From the IMG/VR virus record IMGVR_UViG_3300042542_005279, positions 17,617 to 81,616 of that record: a DNA stretch of 64,000 bases; one strand, 5' to 3'. The notes beneath the pieces were generated by a model. The model made no database searches. It saw only the letters and a list, made by a program, of their open reading frames with translations, and had not been told where the DNA came from. The position numbers were made by a program, and so were the translations under genes. Position 1 is the first letter of the stretch. Each line of letters starts with the position of its first letter. The DNA comes from a virus. Shown in pieces: positions 1,477 to 64,000 of the stretch.

Positions 1477-2082
1477 TTATTTCCAAAGATTTTCTTGTCT
1501 CATATAACCTAAACAACAGGTATATGCATCTGACATATCAAAGTTCTCTTTTTTCAGAGTTTGATTTTTGGTATATTGCCACTTAATTTGTGGTTCCCTT
1601 TTTGCCACCAAATCCCAAATAATCATTTTTTTATCAATATCTTTTGGTAAACCACCAAACAATACAAATTTTTTCTTGTCGTTTTCTTTTACTAACTCAG
1701 GAAATGCAAATTTTCTTGAATTATAAGTTGATATGTATTCAGGAACAACTCCTAATACATCATAAATTTCTTTTGAAATAAGTGTGTTGAATCTTAATAA
1801 TGTTTGAATGGTATACACATTATTTGAATTAAGTAATGGTTCTTCAATGATTACTTTTGTAATACCCAAATTTTTGTATTCATTAAGTTTCTGTTTGAAA
1901 ACTTCCGCTTTCAAAAATAATTCTTTGATTTTGTTTTCCTCTTTTGGTTTTGGTACGGGTGAGATGTGAGTTAACTCTAATAACTCCTCTGTAATCATAT
2001 CAAATAATGCCCATCCGATTGTTTTTGTACTTACATCTAAACCCAATACTTTTGGGTTGTTCTTAATCTGTTGTTTCGCCAT
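1477..2082 (-). CDS. RuvC-like Holliday junction resolvase
   Basis: This 201-residue protein has the RNase H-fold signature of RuvC-type resolvases. There is an N-terminal beta hairpin with the first acid (KVLGLDVSTKTIGWALFD, D16), a second acid at the end of a strand (KVIIEEP, E80/E81) and the last acidic pair near the C-terminus (FDMSDAYTCC, D182 and D185). Enzymes of this family cut four-way DNA junctions. In a T4-like phage that would resolve branched replication intermediates before packaging, the job of gp49 in T4, to which it is not obviously related in sequence. It lies between tail fibre genes, away from the replication block. A variant late box (TATTTAC on the coding strand, 2115-2121) lies 32 bases before the start. 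Confidence 0.75.
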   Translation of the reverse strand: MAKQQIKNNPKVLGLDVSTKTIGWALFDMITEELLELTHISPVPKPKEENKIKELFLKAEVFKQKLNEYKNLGITKVIIEEPLLNSNNVYTIQTLLRFNTLISKEIYDVLGVVPEYISTYNSRKFAFPELVKENDKKKFVLFGGLPKDIDKKMIIWDLVAKREPQIKWQYTKNQTLKKENFDMSDAYTCCLGYMRQENLWK

Positions 2083-6852: not shown

Positions 6853-9150
6853 CTAACAACTTTCACAATCTATGTCATAAACAATTTTTAATTGTACAGT
6901 GATATTTTGATTTGCTAAACCATTATTTGACTCTTCACATGAGGTATCAACTGTGATTGTATTTTCAGTAGTATTAACTGTTACAGTTCCGATACCTGTG
7001 GCACCACTTAATAGATTTTTAACCGTATTTGACCACTGTGTTTCGGTAGGAACGTCATTAAGTGTTGTTGCGGTATAAAATGATTGACTATAACCCGTTC
7101 CTGCAACAGTTGTAACCGCTGAGAAAATTGCGCTATTCATCAAACAATTTGTACACCCACTTGTTAAATCAAGATAACCCTCAACTAACATTTTTGACAT
7201 ATCTCGTTCAATTATTTCACCTGTTGATGCAATAACACTATCACACACGTTAAATAATGAAAAATTACTTGCTAAAAATGTACCCTGTAAAGTTATACTA
7301 TTAGATAACACGCATCCCGCAAAATCTGTCACGGTTAAAGTGTAAGTACCTGCAGATAAATTAGTTACAGTATTTCCCGTTTGACCATTGACATTTGATG
7401 ACCAAGTTAGTGTGAATGGAGGTAACCCTTGATATATGTTAGCAACAATTTCACCATTCGAACCATTTGTTGAGTCCTGTGGTATAAGTGTAAAATTCAC
7501 ATTTTCACTACTATTGATAACAAACGAACTTGTTTCCTCACACAAATTTTTATCTTCAATGGTTGCAAAATAAGTACCTGGTGCTAAGTTACTAAAAGTA
7601 TATGAACTAAAAAGTATTTGTGGTGACGCTTGATTATTATTTCCATCGATATCTACAATTGAGAATATGAATGGTCCTGTCCCTCCTGACGCCTTTGTGA
7701 TTGTTACAACTCCATTATTATTTCCACATGTTGTACCTGTGGTATCAATTGTAAGACTATATAATGACGTTGTTTCTAAACTATATATATTAGTGTAAGT
7801 ACAAACACCATCAGTAATTGTAAGTGAATAATTTTGTGAGGATAAATTAGTAAATGTTTGACTTAATCCTCCAACTCTGTTTAAACTTGTTCCGTTTGCA
7901 CCGCTTAAAGTATAAGTATAACTTATACCATTTGTATTACCAATTAAAGTTATATCTAAGATTCCATTCGAATTACCACATGTTGGTTGTGTTATATTAA
8001 TAGCACCAATCGCAAAACTATTAGATTGATTTATTTGTACTGAAGTTTGAGTGTTACATAATGCAGCATCTGTAATTATAATCTGATAATTACCCCCTGG
8101 AAGATTAGTGAAAGTATAGGTTTGGGAGTAACTTATATCGGTGAATGAAATTGAGGGTATATTAAATCTATATGGTGGCGTTCCATTGATTAAAGTTACC
8201 GTTATAGAACCATTACTTTCAAAACAAGTAGGTGGATTAGTTTCGGTTGATGCTATTGATACTGGTAGTTTTTCAGTAATTTCAGATGTGACAGTTAAAA
8301 AACATCCAGCAGCGTCTGTTACGGTTACATCATAAAAACCGGCAGTCAAACCTGTGATAGATGAACCGCTTAAGGATTGATTTGAGTCCGAGAGGTATTG
8401 TATAGTGTTGCCAACCCCATTCCAACGATAATTATATGGTGATGTACCTGTCAACCCTGTAATAAAAATTTTACCAACTCCAGTACTTACATTACCGCAA
8501 TCCGCATCATTTACGATATAAGTACCAAAGTTTAGTTGGGTTGAAGAATTGATAATAACATTTTCGCTTCTTCCAGTACACCCACCACCATCATTAGCAA
8601 TGATATAATAAACACCGCTCGGTAAATTTTGGAATGTGTAAGAGTTTGAACCAATATTAACAAAATCTATTAAATCAGGATTTGCATTCTCAATGTTTGG
8701 TTGTTCTAATGGTGGTAAAGTCGTGTTGTTTTGTAAATATAAATAAAAATCAACGTTACCATTACTATTTTGTATGGTAGCGGTCAAAGACCCGTCATTA
8801 TTTCCGCAGGTAGTATTGATTACATCTGAAATATTTACACATGAAGTTCCTGACGATACTGTAATACTTACTGTCTGTCGATTGTTTTGAGTTGTGGCGG
8901 TCGGTGAACCACAACTATCATTAACAACAAAAACATATGTTCCCGCCGGTACGTTGAAATAATCTCTCGAACCATTTAAAACTCCTGTTTCAGGGTTTTC
9001 TCCTCCATAAGGAGGCCAAGGATTTGGTGAAATCCAAGTAATACTCATTGGTTCTGATGTGGATGACAAATATAATGTAAATCCACCTGAACCATTATTT
9101 TCGCAATCACCTATAACTGAAAACTGACTAAAATCGTATGAACAAGGCAT
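6853..9150 (-). CDS. SprB-repeat tail adhesin
   Basis: The 765-residue product is built from about seven tandem beta-sandwich repeats of the SprB type, roughly at residues 10-80, 104-191, 212-283, 300-365, 384-450, 466-537 and 552-613. A typical unit opens with TCGNxxG, continues with NGTPPYxF or GTSPYNYRW, and closes with NLxxGxYxxxxTDxxGC. SprB repeats are known from very large cell-surface adhesins of gliding Bacteroidota. The remaining 140 residues form a different C-terminal domain (ETQWSN, ENTITVDTSC, IVYDIDCESC) that resembles the C-terminus of the adjacent 9154-12132 product. The likely role is a receptor-binding or host-contact fibre. The repeat identification is strong; acquisition from a host is inferred. 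Confidence 0.8.
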   Translation of the reverse strand: MPCSYDFSQFSVIGDCENNGSGGFTLYLSSTSEPMSITWISPNPWPPYGGENPETGVLNGSRDYFNVPAGTYVFVVNDSCGSPTATTQNNRQTVSITVSSGTSCVNISDVINTTCGNNDGSLTATIQNSNGNVDFYLYLQNNTTLPPLEQPNIENANPDLIDFVNIGSNSYTFQNLPSGVYYIIANDGGGCTGRSENVIINSSTQLNFGTYIVNDADCGNVSTGVGKIFITGLTGTSPYNYRWNGVGNTIQYLSDSNQSLSGSSITGLTAGFYDVTVTDAAGCFLTVTSEITEKLPVSIASTETNPPTCFESNGSITVTLINGTPPYRFNIPSISFTDISYSQTYTFTNLPGGNYQIIITDAALCNTQTSVQINQSNSFAIGAINITQPTCGNSNGILDITLIGNTNGISYTYTLSGANGTSLNRVGGLSQTFTNLSSQNYSLTITDGVCTYTNIYSLETTSLYSLTIDTTGTTCGNNNGVVTITKASGGTGPFIFSIVDIDGNNNQASPQILFSSYTFSNLAPGTYFATIEDKNLCEETSSFVINSSENVNFTLIPQDSTNGSNGEIVANIYQGLPPFTLTWSSNVNGQTGNTVTNLSAGTYTLTVTDFAGCVLSNSITLQGTFLASNFSLFNVCDSVIASTGEIIERDMSKMLVEGYLDLTSGCTNCLMNSAIFSAVTTVAGTGYSQSFYTATTLNDVPTETQWSNTVKNLLSGATGIGTVTVNTTENTITVDTSCEESNNGLANQNITVQLKIVYDIDCESC

Positions 9151-57636: not shown

Positions 57637-59391
57637 TTGGAAAACCTATTATCAATTGAACAAAAGGCCTTAGAAATTTTATCCACATATGATGGGGGTA
57701 ATAATTTTATTTTGCGTTTAAAGCAGCAACAATTGCTAAATAAAAAGTTTTTTCCAACAAGAACTCAATCTGATTACATTATAACTTATCATAACGATAA
57801 ACCAAAGGTCGCCAAAAAGTGGGTTGATTTGGACCCCTATTTTGCAAAGAAAATCGCTGATGAAAAATTATTTAGAGAAATACCTGATAAAGTTTATGTT
57901 GAGAAGTTATTGGTTGAGAAAGAAAAATCATATCACATTTGGGGTAAATTTTTTGAGAACGAACAAATGATTGATTTTTGGATGCCGAAAGGCGCTTTAG
58001 TTAAAACCCATACGGTAGAAAAAGTTGATATTGATTATTCAAAGTATTCTCATAGACCACCGCTTTCTCATCAAAAAGAAGCAATTGAGAAATTAGCAGG
58101 AAGTAAAAGGTTTATATTAGCCGATGATATGGGTTTGGGGAAAACTACCTCAACTATTATCGCTGCGTTAGAGTCAGGGGCAAAAAAGGTTTTGATTATA
58201 TGTCCCGCGTCTTTAAAGATAAATTGGGCAAGAGAAATCGAAAACTACACAGATAAATCAATTTATATTTGTGAGGGTAAAAACTTTTCAAGTGATGAGG
58301 ATTTTGTTATTGTAAATTATGATATCATAAAAAACTTTCACGACATCAAAGAAAAAGAGAATTCACAGATATTAAATGCAAATTTTGATTTGGTTATAAT
58401 TGATGAGGCGCATTATATCAAAAACTCACAAGCCCAAAGAACAAAACTTATTAATAACTTTGTTAAAAACGTTAATCGTCTATGGTTATTAACTGGAACC
58501 CCAATTACATCTCGTCCGATTGATTATTTTAATTTATTGTCTTTAATTGAATCCCCTGTTGCACAGAATTGGATGGCGTATGTAATTCGTTTTTGTGAGG
58601 GATACCAGTTTAGAGCGGGAAAAAGAAAGGTATGGAACGTTAATGGAGCATCCAACTTGGATGAACTTCGTGATAGAACCTCAAAACAAATATTAAGAAG
58701 ATTAAAAACCGATGTATTAGATTTACCTGAAAAAATAATTAACCCCGTTTATTTGAGATTAAAATCCAAAGAATATGAAAACCTTATGGGTGAGTATTAT
58801 GATTGGTATAGAAATAATAAAGAGGAGTCCTCATCACTTACAATTCAGTTTTCAAAACTGATGAAAGTAAGACAGGTAATCGCAGATGAAAAAGTTTCAC
58901 AAACGATAGAACTTGCTGAGAACATTTTAGAACAAGGAAAAAAAGTTATCATATTTTCTAACTTCACGGAACCTTTAAAGAGAATTTATGAACACTTTGG
59001 AAAATCTGCCGTTTATTTGGATGGTTCTTCTACCAAACCAGCAAGACAAAAGGCGGTGGATGATTTCCAAGACAATGATAAGGTCAAAGTTTTCTGTGGT
59101 AATATAAAGGCTGCGGGTGTTGGTATTACTTTAACATCCGCTGAGGTTGTTATCTTTAATGACTTATCTTTTGTTCCGTCGGACCATTCACAAGCCGAGG
59201 ATAGAGCGTACCGATATGGACAAAAAAATAGTGTATTAGTTTATTATCCCTTGTTTGAAAACACAATTGAGGGGGCGATTTACGACATCTTAATTAAGAA
59301 AAAAGGAATCTTTGAAACCGTGATGGGTGACAATTTAGATAGGGGTTCCGCCGCTGAACTAATACTGAATTCAATTAACTCGGAAGGATAA
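57637..59391 (+). CDS. SNF2-family DNA-dependent ATPase
   Basis: I use the in-frame TTG at 57637 because the longer frame from 57589 includes the divergent promoter; the exact start is uncertain. The 584-residue product has all main SNF2 motifs: PLSHQKEAIEKL, Walker A DDMGLGKTT (about 163-171), IICPASLKINWAREI, DEAH (256-259), WLLTGTPI, SNFTEPLKR, IKAAGVGITLT and motif VI QAEDRAYRYGQ. The layout resembles compact SMARCAL1/HARP-type fork remodellers. In T4 the UvsW helicase has a related role in fork regression and recombination. It is led by a variant box and followed by the superoxide dismutase-nuclease gene. Confidence 0.88.
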   Translation: MENLLSIEQKALEILSTYDGGNNFILRLKQQQLLNKKFFPTRTQSDYIITYHNDKPKVAKKWVDLDPYFAKKIADEKLFREIPDKVYVEKLLVEKEKSYHIWGKFFENEQMIDFWMPKGALVKTHTVEKVDIDYSKYSHRPPLSHQKEAIEKLAGSKRFILADDMGLGKTTSTIIAALESGAKKVLIICPASLKINWAREIENYTDKSIYICEGKNFSSDEDFVIVNYDIIKNFHDIKEKENSQILNANFDLVIIDEAHYIKNSQAQRTKLINNFVKNVNRLWLLTGTPITSRPIDYFNLLSLIESPVAQNWMAYVIRFCEGYQFRAGKRKVWNVNGASNLDELRDRTSKQILRRLKTDVLDLPEKIINPVYLRLKSKEYENLMGEYYDWYRNNKEESSSLTIQFSKLMKVRQVIADEKVSQTIELAENILEQGKKVIIFSNFTEPLKRIYEHFGKSAVYLDGSSTKPARQKAVDDFQDNDKVKVFCGNIKAAGVGITLTSAEVVIFNDLSFVPSDHSQAEDRAYRYGQKNSVLVYYPLFENTIEGAIYDILIKKKGIFETVMGDNLDRGSAAELILNSINSEG

Positions 59392-59433: not shown

Positions 59434-60975
59434 ATGATGAAAAAACTTCAAGAAAAAGTAGAAAAAATAGCCAGTCAAATAAAAGAAGAAGAAACAAGGG
59501 ATAATGAAAAATTATTTATAAATGAAATGAAAAAAATAGGAATTGAGAAATTACCTTACTCGTATTCCGCTTTAAAACAATTCATTGACCCTGAAACAAT
59601 GTCTTACCACTATAACGGACATTACAAAACTTATGTTGATAAATTAAATGATGCATTAAGTAAAAAAGATTATGGTGATGTTGAGTTAGAGGAAATAATT
59701 AAATCAATTAGCAAGTACAACAAGACCATAAGAAATAATGCGGGTGGAGCGTTCAACCACGCACTTTTTTGGAAAATGTTATCTCCAACTGAACAGAAAT
59801 GTACAGGAACAATTTACGAAAGAATTAAAAAAGATTTTCATAACTTTTTGGGATTCAAACAAGAATTCACTGAAAAGGCCAAGAAAAACTTTGGTTCAGG
59901 ATGGATATGGCTTGTGTTAACAAAATCGGGTTCTTTAAAGATTATGACAACTCCAAACCAAGATAATCCACTTATGAATATTGTAAGAAATGGGGGTTAT
60001 CCACTTTTGGGTCTTGATTTGTGGGAACACGCTTATTACTTGAGATATAAGAACAAAAGGGACGATTACATCAAAAACTTTTTCAAAGCAATAAATTGGA
60101 AGTTTGTCGGTAAAATGTATAACATGAAGTTAAAGAATAAACTTAATGAGTCGGCACATGTAAAATCTGTATTATCGGAGGGTGTTAGTGAAAGTTGTTC
60201 AAGAGAAGAAAACGAGGCGTATCGTTTTATATTTAATCTGAATCCAATGGTTAAACAGATTTATAAAAAAACAATTCAATCTGTTTTGAAAGAAGTTTTT
60301 TCAGATAGATACTACGAGGAAAATGAGTATAAAGACGGGGAAATGGCCGGTGTTTATAATTTAGAAGGTGAAGGAAGGTCGGTGTTGAATTATTTAAACA
60401 CAAACATCAGAGGGTTTTGTATTTTAGTAAAAGACATTAATAAACTATTGAGGGTTAAAAACGAAACCCCATTAAAATTTGTCGGTGTGTCACCCCGAGA
60501 ACAATTAAATGAAGTTCAAAGAATGTGTCAAATAATCGAACAATTCAAATTCAGAATCTTTTCAACTAAATCTAAAACTTTTGAAAATCTTATATCAACG
60601 TTAAGTAAGACCGAACAACTTGGTAAAATGACTGAGGAGTTTACGGTTGTTAAATTGAAAGAAAAATACGGAGATGATAATGTATCACTTGTGGGTAAAT
60701 TGGGTAGTTCAAAAGACGCTAAAGAAGGTATTGATGCGGAAATAATTGTTGATGGTGAAACTAAAACAGCCCAAATCAAACCTTTTGGTAGTTATAATTT
60801 AGATAAAGATACTTATACAGTATATAATACTGCCAACGTAAAAGAATATAATACAGATTGGATTGTATTTTATAATAAAAAATTTGGTATATTTGTATTC
60901 GATAATCGCAACACTAAGATTGTGGGGGGAAATTACACTATACCATCAACATCTTTAATTGAGATTATCAAATGA
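59434..60975 (+). CDS. Mn-type superoxide dismutase fused to PD-(D/E)XK-like nuclease
   Basis: The 513-residue product has two unrelated halves. Residues about 37-231 are a complete Fe/Mn superoxide dismutase: LPYSYSALKQF, ligand H59 and gateway residues H63/Y67 (SYHYNGHYKTYV), H109 (GAFNHALFW), D195 and H199 (LDLWEHAYYLRY). Q176 (PNQDNPLM) lies at the Mn-type position. It should convert superoxide to peroxide and oxygen. A linker (about 232-262) contains VLSEGVSE. The C-terminal half ends in a nuclease-like core: E401/E402 (MTEEFTVVKLKEKYG), D434 (EGIDAEIIVDGE) and Q447-x-K449 (AQIKPF). That is the order of PD-(D/E)XK enzymes with Gln in place of Glu. A helical N-terminal leader (1-36) precedes both. 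It overlaps the next gene by 4 bases. Confidence 0.85.
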   Translation: MMKKLQEKVEKIASQIKEEETRDNEKLFINEMKKIGIEKLPYSYSALKQFIDPETMSYHYNGHYKTYVDKLNDALSKKDYGDVELEEIIKSISKYNKTIRNNAGGAFNHALFWKMLSPTEQKCTGTIYERIKKDFHNFLGFKQEFTEKAKKNFGSGWIWLVLTKSGSLKIMTTPNQDNPLMNIVRNGGYPLLGLDLWEHAYYLRYKNKRDDYIKNFFKAINWKFVGKMYNMKLKNKLNESAHVKSVLSEGVSESCSREENEAYRFIFNLNPMVKQIYKKTIQSVLKEVFSDRYYEENEYKDGEMAGVYNLEGEGRSVLNYLNTNIRGFCILVKDINKLLRVKNETPLKFVGVSPREQLNEVQRMCQIIEQFKFRIFSTKSKTFENLISTLSKTEQLGKMTEEFTVVKLKEKYGDDNVSLVGKLGSSKDAKEGIDAEIIVDGETKTAQIKPFGSYNLDKDTYTVYNTANVKEYNTDWIVFYNKKFGIFVFDNRNTKIVGGNYTIPSTSLIEIIK

Positions 60976-62117
60976 AAATTTTAATATCTGAAAGTCAATT
61001 AGTTAGATTAACAGAGAAATATTTAGACCAAGATGAAATGTTTGACGACGATTATTTAAATGTTTTATATAAAAAAACTCGTAAAAAAAACAACTCAGCA
61101 ATTAAACTTTTGGCTTTGAGGTCATCGCTAACCGACCAAAAATTAATAACCGATTTGAACAAAAGTATTGAAACTCTATACAAATTTTTTAATAGGAAGA
61201 ATTCAGGTCTTTTACCAAAAATATTGGAACTATCATTGATAGATAGAAACAAAACCATAAATGACTTGAAGGTGGTTGCTGATTTCATCAATGATGAAGA
61301 ATTTAATGATGATGTGACCAAAAAACAATTATTAAAATTAAGAGATATGTCCATAGTTCCTGATGATTTAGAAGATATATTAAAAAATGTTAGAGAAAAA
61401 GAATATTCAAAATATGAGAAAGAATTCGAGGGTGATTATTTTGACCTAAGTAGGACTGCTCTTTCTTTACAATATAAATGCGGTGAAGACCTTGATAATA
61501 ATTTTTTGGAAAAAATACAAAGATTCAAAAGTGTCTCTACTGATGATTTTCAAAAATTACTCTTAAAGATAAAAAATTGTGTTAAGTCATCTTTAAGTGA
61601 TAAGGTTGTTATAAAATCAGACATAGTGTCTAAAACCCCTCTTTATGTTGTGGATAATGGAAAAAAAACTGAGGTATTCCCATCTGGTTCTAACTTTGAG
61701 GTCAAGAAGATGGACGTTAATATAGATAGTTACTTGTCAGAATTTTTTTCAATTTTTAAACAATCAAAAAATAAACAATACAAGGGTTCACATTTAGAAA
61801 TTTATAACTCAGTAATTCGTGGTCTTTATGAGTGGGTAAAAGGTGAGGGTCAAGAATATCTTGATAGTATTAAAAATAATATGGAGGGTATTGTTTATGA
61901 AAATTATACAATTGTACCCATTAAATTTATAGATTTCTATTGGTCAAATGTTGGTCAAAGAGGATGTAATGAATTGAGATTATCTATTAGATTCCGTATA
62001 AAACCGGATTATCAAAATAAAACAATCGACACATACATTTTTAATAAAAATTCCGATATTTTAGAGAAAAAACAATTATATGTTGCTAAAAAAGAGGTTG
62101 AAAAGGTAGTTTGTTAG
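60972..62117 (+). CDS. Unknown partner of the SOD-nuclease gene
   Basis: The 381-residue product starts with KILISESQLVRLTEKYLD, the ESQL motif also found in the 33-residue product at 52423-52524. Residues about 35-215 are helical and charged (KKTRKKNNSAIKLLALRSSL, LLKLRDMSIVPDDLEDILKN). The remaining part is mixed alpha/beta (HLEIYNSVIRGLYEWVKGEG, then VPIKFIDFYWSNVGQRGCNE and RLSIRFRIKPD). No enzyme motif is recognised. Its ATG overlaps the TGA of the fusion gene (ATGA), so the two are translationally coupled and probably work in one complex. A late box follows its stop. Confidence 0.55.
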   Translation: MKILISESQLVRLTEKYLDQDEMFDDDYLNVLYKKTRKKNNSAIKLLALRSSLTDQKLITDLNKSIETLYKFFNRKNSGLLPKILELSLIDRNKTINDLKVVADFINDEEFNDDVTKKQLLKLRDMSIVPDDLEDILKNVREKEYSKYEKEFEGDYFDLSRTALSLQYKCGEDLDNNFLEKIQRFKSVSTDDFQKLLLKIKNCVKSSLSDKVVIKSDIVSKTPLYVVDNGKKTEVFPSGSNFEVKKMDVNIDSYLSEFFSIFKQSKNKQYKGSHLEIYNSVIRGLYEWVKGEGQEYLDSIKNNMEGIVYENYTIVPIKFIDFYWSNVGQRGCNELRLSIRFRIKPDYQNKTIDTYIFNKNSDILEKKQLYVAKKEVEKVVC

Positions 62118-62138: not shown

Positions 62139-63263
62139 ATGGCTGTTATTCCTGAACCTGAAAGAACCAAACTTTACACTCAAGTAAAACATTTACTTGG
62201 AGCACCTTTACGTTCTATTGAAATAGTTGATGAACAAATGGATACTCTTTTGGAGTTTTCCGTTCAAGATTATGCTCAGTATGTTCAAGATTGGTTAATT
62301 GAATCTCAATGGACTTCTTTATATAATCTAAATTTGGATACTCAATCTTTATCAAGAGCGTTTGTAACAAAGAGTTTAGATTGGGAAACAAGATACTCAT
62401 ATGCATACTCAAAGATTGTGGGACTACAAACCAATGGAGATTGGGTTTTGAAAAAGGATTTTATTCAATTAGAAAGAGGAAAGCAAATTTATGAGATACC
62501 CGCAGGTCGTGAATTGAATGAATTGTTATGGTTTACTCCCGCAACACTAAACAATATTTTCTTTGACCCTTGGTCTTTTGGAGGTATTGGTTCAGGAGGA
62601 TTGGGTGGTCCTGGTGGATTTGCTCAGATGGGTAACACGGTTGGTTCATACTTTATGATGCCCGCTTTTGATATGTTACTTCGTATGCAAGAAGTTAATA
62701 TTCAAAGAAGAATTATTGCTGGAGATTTAACTTATCGTGTGACCGCATTACCTGATGGTAAAAAGGCAATTCATTTGATGCAGACTCCAGGTGGAAAATT
62801 CGACTTCGGAAATGCTAATCTAATGAGAGGACAAGTATGGTATTGGTATTATGATACTGAAGGTGCTGATAGGGATGATTGTTTAAAAAGTAATCCTGAT
62901 ATTATAAAATTACCATCTGATGTTCCTTTTGATGAATTATCTTGGATTGATTTGAATAATCCCGCTAAGCAGTGGGTTCGTAGATGGTTTATTGCATATG
63001 TTAAAGAAACCTTATCAAGAGTAAGAGGAAAGTATAGTGGTAACTTAAAAACACCCGATTCTGAATTAACTATGGATTATACATCTTTAGCCACTGAAGC
63101 GAAGGATGAAAAGACAAAATTAATTGAGGAATTAATTGGCGCCGAGGGTAGATTGACAAGGTTAAAGCCTGAAAAGGTTATGGAAAGGGAGGCTCTGATT
63201 GCTGAAAATCTAAACAAACAAATGAAATTCAGAGCATTCCCAAGACAAATATATGTAATTTAA
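62139..63263 (+). CDS. Neck protein, gp13-like
   Basis: The 374-residue product resembles T4 gp13 (309 residues), which forms the head-tail neck. Family features are LYTQVKHLLGAPLRSIEIVD and DEQMDTLLEFSVQDYAQYVQ near the start, a YSYAYSKIVGLQ region, a Gly-rich insert (GGIGSGGLGGPGGFAQMG, about 147-165), then WYWYYDTEG. The C-terminal helical block is WFIAYVKETLSRVRGKYSGN followed by SELTMDYTSLATEAKDEKTK and LIEELIGAEGRL. It is read on the opposite strand from the tail genes. The next gene starts 1 base after its stop. Confidence 0.72.
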   Translation: MAVIPEPERTKLYTQVKHLLGAPLRSIEIVDEQMDTLLEFSVQDYAQYVQDWLIESQWTSLYNLNLDTQSLSRAFVTKSLDWETRYSYAYSKIVGLQTNGDWVLKKDFIQLERGKQIYEIPAGRELNELLWFTPATLNNIFFDPWSFGGIGSGGLGGPGGFAQMGNTVGSYFMMPAFDMLLRMQEVNIQRRIIAGDLTYRVTALPDGKKAIHLMQTPGGKFDFGNANLMRGQVWYWYYDTEGADRDDCLKSNPDIIKLPSDVPFDELSWIDLNNPAKQWVRRWFIAYVKETLSRVRGKYSGNLKTPDSELTMDYTSLATEAKDEKTKLIEELIGAEGRLTRLKPEKVMEREALIAENLNKQMKFRAFPRQIYVI

Positions 63264-63264
63264 T

Positions 63265-63600
63265 ATGGCAATTATTCGTTCAATACCTTCTGAAAAAGTA
63301 ATTGGTGGTAGAATTATAAAATCATCTGAAATTGTTATTGTATCTGAACCTGAATATACATCTAATGGTGAGGGATTAATAATTGTAAAAGATATTAGTT
63401 TTTGTAAATTGAAATTAAATCATGCCGCAACTGACCACGTTAGGGTTAAGTCGTTAACAAACACTTTAATAATTCCTGATATTGGAATGTTTGATGAAAA
63501 ATATGATGAGTTATCAATTACATCCGAATCGTGTGTTGAGTTTTATTTTGCCCAAGGACATTGGTACATTACATCAAGTGATGGGTTAAAGTTATCTTAA
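63265..63600 (+). CDS. Small beta-rich protein after gp13-like gene
   Basis: The 111-residue product is nearly all beta strands (IGGRIIKSSEIVIVSEPEYT, GLIIVKDISFCKLKLNH, CVEFYFAQGHWYITSSDG). It has two Cys and no enzyme motif. It is translated with the gp13-like gene and might be a decoration or neck appendage protein. No family was recognised. Its TAA overlaps the stop of the convergent HNH gene (TTAA). Confidence 0.55.
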   Translation: MAIIRSIPSEKVIGGRIIKSSEIVIVSEPEYTSNGEGLIIVKDISFCKLKLNHAATDHVRVKSLTNTLIIPDIGMFDEKYDELSITSESCVEFYFAQGHWYITSSDGLKLS

Positions 63601-64000
63601 ACTATTCTCCCTCCTTTTTTGAAATTATCTTGGGACCACAATGGTTGTAAATTAGTGTAATGACATAATTTAAAAACCTCTTCTTCTGTTTTTGCCGTAC
63701 ATAATGGTATTATATGGTCGATGTGCCAACCATAAAAACCGTAATTATCCCAAGTCATACCTTCTAAAAATTTTTTCTCCAAATATTCTTTAAGAAATTC
63801 AGGAGTACAACCAACAACATCAAATGTTTTATTTTTTTTTGTAATTTTATTTGACGATAAAAAAACATTAATCCTTCTTCTTATGTTTTCCGAAAGTTTT
63901 ACAATGTTTGATTCTTTTCTTCTTTTATTAGAATAATACGTTCTATATTCAGTAATTTTACTTTTATTTTTAAGTTTATACTCGTTTCGTGAAAGTTTGA
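63597..64000 (-). CDS. HNH endonuclease, 5' end beyond window
   Basis: The frame is open from the stop at 63597 to the window edge, so the true start lies beyond 64000; at least 133 residues are visible. The C-terminal part is an HNH core of the phage homing type: CTPEFLKEYLEKKFLEGMTW, then GWHIDHIIPLCTA, and YTNLQPLWSQDNFKKG. The helical upstream part is basic (SNKRRKESNIVKLSENIRRR). Such enzymes are usually selfish free-standing homing nucleases. The TTG at 63782 is not its start, because the frame continues upstream with HNH-family sequence. Confidence 0.85.
   Translation of the reverse strand, partial: KLSRNEYKLKNKSKITEYRTYYSNKRRKESNIVKLSENIRRRINVFLSSNKITKKNKTFDVVGCTPEFLKEYLEKKFLEGMTWDNYGFYGWHIDHIIPLCTAKTEEEVFKLCHYTNLQPLWSQDNFKKGGRIV

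Follow-up and report, generated by a model that had tools for sequence, protein, structure and literature searches.

The gene at positions 59434-60975 (+) of the window, the 64,000-nucleotide stretch analysed here from an 81.6-kb virus record, encodes in one open frame of 513 codons a superoxide dismutase (SOD) of the Mn type followed by a C-terminal half with a predicted PD-(D/E)XK fold, here called NucA. With a probability of about 0.6, we read it as a head-cargo polyprotein resembling the internal proteins of phage T4, which would be cut in the prohead into separate enzymes. Established at the level of sequence are the architecture, the active sites, the (L/I)xE motifs at the module borders, and the exchange of modules between fused forms and separate, tagged genes.

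The fusion gene and its two halves

In a scan of IMG/VR, at least 592 stretches were found to encode relatives of the fusion, and at 141 loci both halves lie in a single open frame, so that a frame-joining artefact, which the first-pass annotation had named as a possible refutation of a single gene, is ruled out. A search for other proteins with both domains yielded 74 different full-length fusions, which were collected for alignment. The carriers make up a large family of aquatic T4-like phages. The architecture had been called undescribed, and no account of a SOD-nuclease fusion was found in the literature; a family member is, however, already deposited in BFVD, where the one predicted structure of the family (A0A6J5L953, from an uncultured phage) is titled only 'superoxide dismutase'. 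Among GenBank phages 30 records match, none across more than 43% of the protein, and the fusion is absent from that collection. SOD matches in Staphylococcus, Enterococcus and Listeria 'phages' (OR844989, OR846594 and similar GenBank records) resemble host chromosome contamination, and those in Salmonella 'phages' likewise resemble host DNA within phage records. When 84,980 species genomes were scanned with SOD-based patterns, the matches were all free-standing SODs, none with the C-terminal half, and an origin as a host gene or prophage was rejected on this ground. PADLOC returned no defence-system match.

The SOD domain (residues 37-231; 59542-60126, +) matches Pfam Sod_Fe_N (E 1e-22) and Sod_Fe_C (E 2e-37) across residues 37-227, and the best PDB sequence match of the fusion is S. 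aureus SodA (E 4e-57, residues 37-231). H59, H63, Y67, H109, W157, Q176, G193, D195, E198, H199 and Y202 are invariant in 74/74 fusions. Both domains of an Fe/Mn SOD are present, with the four metal ligands H, H, D, H (H59, H109, D195, H199) and, in 74/74, a Mn-type second sphere consisting of the C-terminal Gln (Q176) and a Gly at X_D-2 (G193); in Mn-preferring SodFM enzymes, the usual pattern, a correlation, is a C-terminal Gln with Gly or Ala at X_D-2 (PMC10172142). The Pfam and SodA matches and the invariance of these residues thus bear out the complete Mn-type SOD of the first-pass annotation, and this half is very likely to be catalytically active. Its dN/dS (NG86) is 0.02-0.12 and that of the faster-evolving NucA 0.08-0.28, both rough because dS is often near saturation.

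For NucA (residues 250-513; 60181-60972, +), no sequence match was found in Pfam, PHROG or PDB. The full-length AlphaFold2 model of the fusion was modest (pTM 0.54) and Foldseek detected SOD alone, so the C-terminal half was modelled separately, which for residues 238-513 gave a confident structure (pLDDT 89.8, pTM 0.81). Against the PDB, Foldseek placed the homing endonuclease I-Ssp6803I first (prob 1.00) and archaeal Hjc resolvases next, the top matches all having a restriction-endonuclease-like fold at E-values of only 4e-3 to 0.3, and PD(D/E)XK-named entries are within the first 11 matches in BFVD. As the E-values are 4e-3 and weaker, the fold assignment is based on the consistency of the matches and on the conservation of E401, D434 and Q447-x-K449. 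These residues, the candidate active site, are invariant in 74/74 fusions and preserve the PD-(D/E)XK catalytic order E...D...(E/Q)xK. The order given earlier was right in D434, Q447 and K449 and off by one residue in its first acid, since position 402 varies (D, E or N) and E401 is the conserved one; the restriction-endonuclease-like fold expected for this half agrees with the confident model and its matches to PD-(D/E)XK enzymes. NucA is accordingly modelled as a PD-(D/E)XK nuclease-like protein, for which cleavage is predicted. A stand-alone NucA homologue of 290 aa, with neither SOD nor tag, occurs in the 735-kb phage genome LR756501 (L084, 4743-5612); it keeps the D and QxK, and no further relatives were found with it as query.

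Module borders and the cassette

Residues 1-31 (59434-59526, +) form a helical leader ending in INE31↓M (the arrow marks the proposed cut), a putative capsid-targeting propeptide. E31 and L/I29 are invariant in the 74 fusions, in a leader that is otherwise highly variable, and the residue after E31 (P1') is Met in 68/74. Two further proposed head-protease sites lie past the SOD at LNE239↓S (60142-60150, +), where E239 is invariant, P3 is L or I in 95% and P1' is S or T in 63/74 fusions, and ahead of NucA at LSE249↓G (60172-60180, +), with (L/I)xE in 98.6% and G, S or Q at P1'. The linker around these motifs is variable across the 74 fusions, and (L/I)xE is conserved in at least 94% of them only at 31, 239, 249 and the catalytic WEH at 198. 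In T4, the protease gp21 cleaves behind L/I-X-E, and the propeptides that it takes off range from 7 residues (Alt) to 65 (gp23) (PMC9026906); the leader end and the module borders thus carry a motif of head-protease substrates. Across all architectures, a motif of this kind stands just before the SOD, nine residues ahead of LPY, in 131/131 different SOD proteins (L or I in 126, V or M in the rest). Within 34 residues past the SOD, (L/I)xE occurs in 121/121 proteins that continue into another module and in 0/10 that end after the SOD, a control weakened by the length of those ten tails (below 20 residues), against 43% of random 34-aa stretches; as related sequences are not independent, such counts are not probabilities.

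The fusion is preceded by a SNF2/UvsW-like helicase gene (57652-59391, +), a constant upstream neighbour at 194/197 loci (a count to which some contigs contribute overlapping loci), and a neck gene (head-tail adaptor Ad2-like; 62139-63263, +) is the downstream border of what proved to be a modular cassette built round the SOD. The slot holds SOD-NucA in the window, and elsewhere SOD-NucB-NucB (882 aa), HExxH-SOD, HExxH-SOD-NucB, SOD-NucA with a separate NucB gene, or HExxH-SOD with or without other tails, NucB being a distant NucA homologue (profile comparison prob 96-97%). Several modules exist in two forms, joined to a longer chain behind (L/I)xE or encoded on their own by genes starting MKxxI(S/T)E: the next gene of the window (60972-62117, +; 381 aa), which begins MKILISE↓SQ, overlaps the fusion's stop codon and is homologous to the C-terminal module of HExxH-SOD-X proteins (26 loci, E down to 4e-87); NucB, whose stand-alone start MKITISE↓G matches LSE249↓G in position; and small tail modules, which resemble separate small genes starting MKxxITE (E 1e-6). 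In a large second group (L289-L295, L296-L375), the SOD has in front of it the HExxH (metallopeptidase-like) domain, some 150 aa long, and L348 and L374 have a further, different C-terminal module. Downstream of the neck gene, a short ORF at 63597-63782 (-) has an HNH-like HIDHIIPL motif, and L275 contains a similar ORF (7114-7413).

At nine loci (two different sequences), one of them a 318-kb contig, the same gene in the same place lacks the SOD with no shift of frame: leader and MKKIEIEKL remain, and the chain resumes at KSIISEGKSE. No SOD was found elsewhere in the 318-kb contig. In the NucA tree, the SOD-less form is nested among SOD-bearing forms (fork support 99/97), which indicates loss of the SOD.

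By BLAST, no capsid or head-protease gene was found in the window's own 81.6-kb record, so the head protease is deduced from relatives. In the 322-kb relative G003, the SOD-NucA gene occurs together with a T4-type head cluster of portal, head protease (phrog_207), NucB, scaffold and major capsid protein (phrog_138), in which the stand-alone NucB has the head protease gene on one side and the scaffold gene on the other. The capsid propeptide of G003 ends in HLINE↓A, and those of two isolates end at the equivalent place in QIVSE↓A and QLISE↓A, that is, in a conserved (I/V)xE↓A; G003 thus has a gp21-like protease together with a gp23-like capsid protein that bears such a site. By capsid similarity, the nearest phages are Microcystis phage Mel-JY01, a 484-kb uncultured phage and Flavobacterium phage immuto. 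The phage is a T4-like myovirus, and its gene content suggests a Bacteroidota host.

N-terminal (L/I)xE in G003 peaks at residues 7 and 9 (46 observed against 12.5 expected), close to the 7-residue T4 Alt propeptide, and about 30 of its 325 genes bear such tags. About 30 small genes there (L172-L188, e.g. L173 11641-20000) start MKxLITESK/Q or MKKxIRLTES(D/E)L..IVKxxIxE, and the tagged small proteins may be head-targeted; no mention of RLTESDL and similar tag letters was found in the literature. In the window, a HAD-like gene at 51578-52426 (-) has an (S/L)xE↓GITE leader (MIKKGRYKKPVSVSEGITETG; in a relative MRKKYILEGITEEG) and is another possible tagged protein.

Proposed head cargo and the alternatives

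In the reading that we favour, the leader would direct the polyprotein into the prohead core, like the capsid-targeting sequence of a T4 internal protein, and a gp21-like head protease would cut after (L/I)-x-E at residues 31, 239 and 249, freeing a MnSOD (about 32-239) and a PD-(D/E)XK nuclease-like protein (250-513). Both products would remain beside the genome inside the head and would probably be ejected along with the DNA. The SOD would then clear superoxide from the surroundings of the DNA, whether inside the particle or in a cell that has just been infected; protection from oxidative damage is the natural role of a SOD, and this place and time of action are our proposal. For the nuclease-like part, the targets at infection would be DNA of the host or of competitors, or else nucleic-acid structures. 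The loss of the SOD, its varied partners and the presence of (L/I)xE at every module border argue for separable cargo proteins, and the SOD-less lineage, nested among SOD-bearing ones, counts for head cargo in that it keeps leader and NucA.

Several points stand against this reading. At the first site, nearly all fusions have Met at P1' in place of A, S or G; no capsid or head-protease gene was found in the window's own record; about 30 tagged genes out of 325 are a large number for head cargo, so the tag may have another meaning; and an active nuclease beside packaged DNA would need restraint. T4 can carry foreign proteins, including staphylococcal nuclease that is idle until its metal is added (PMC9026906), which makes a packaged nuclease feasible.

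Alternatively, the whole fusion could work inside the cell as a bifunctional enzyme, its SOD shielding replicating phage DNA and its nuclease acting in repair or recombination. The in-frame fusion across hundreds of contigs and the constant helicase neighbour would suit this, but the SOD is lost while the nuclease remains, occurs with other partners or without any nuclease domain, and is followed by protease-type motifs within otherwise variable linkers, so we consider it unlikely; the redox-coupled DNA cutting of the first-pass annotation finds no support as the main reading for the same reasons. Still less credible is NucA as a Holliday-junction resolvase that partners the adjacent branch-migration helicase, with the SOD as a passenger: the Foldseek matches to Hjc resolvases and the adjoining helicase gene speak for it, but the closest match is a homing endonuclease, NucA evolves fast, and its paralogue NucB sits in the head gene cluster, not among recombination genes. 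The window moreover has a separate RuvC/RuvX-like gene at 1477-2082 (-) (LGLDVSTKTIGWALFD), with a weak Pfam match (E 0.046) and an LGLDVSTKTIGWAL motif read from its sequence, which is probably the phage's own Holliday-junction resolvase. A structural or inactive role of the SOD fold in the head or neck, as the adjacent neck gene might suggest and as the inactive scaffold considered earlier would imply, is highly improbable, since ligands, gateway and second-sphere residues are all invariant, dN/dS is low and the SOD can be lost, as in one lineage.

Beyond this gene, the odds are about even that a widespread group of T4-like phages has a combinatorial cargo cassette, in which fused or unfused enzymes (MnSOD, two PD-(D/E)XK-type families, a HExxH protein and others) share a common (L/I)xE tag and would be packed, released by the protease and delivered with the genome. 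If this is true, these phages bring an antioxidant enzyme, a dismutase carried within the particle, into the cell along with their DNA, and the role of superoxide in early infection becomes directly testable. Short tags would then mark dozens of uncharacterised phage proteins as virion cargo, a tag-and-linker rule would predict injected effectors among the small proteins of large phages from sequence, and the natural multi-enzyme loading of T4-type heads would offer delivery designs for laboratory phages.

Comparison with known systems

Like other members of the SodFM family (PMC10172142), the fusion's SOD has a complete active site and the Mn-preferring pattern; unlike them, it bears a leader and a C-terminal module and sits in a phage late cassette. 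Fe/Mn-type SODs are also encoded by Vibrio phage 2.275.O and the Pseudomonas PA5oct group, but these genes code for a single domain, 27-28% identical, and have different neighbours. NucA shares the fold and the E...D...Q-x-K order of I-Ssp6803I and Hjc, from which it differs in having no sequence similarity to them and an extra N-terminal helical half (250-380) that is unmatched.

Among the giant phages, SPN3US and phiKZ-like phages also have many head cargo proteins from which a prohead protease removes propeptides, their ejection proteins being cut at A-X-E, a motif of the xxE type, with a preference for Ser at P1'; the propeptides there are mostly long, and in the parts of these accounts available to us no SOD or nuclease polyprotein is mentioned (PMC5694885, PMC10052503). 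T4 IPI, IPII, IPIII and Alt have short N-terminal leaders that end in (L/I)xE and are cut by gp21, and the T4 internal proteins are, as proposed here, accessory enzyme or inhibitor cargo, poorly conserved and exchangeable among phages (PMC9026906, PMC9958956). In the present phages, by contrast, several cargo domains, presumably located in the head, are joined in one chain with motifs between them, and the cargo consists of MnSOD, nuclease-like and HExxH domains, none of which is homologous to the internal proteins or Alt.
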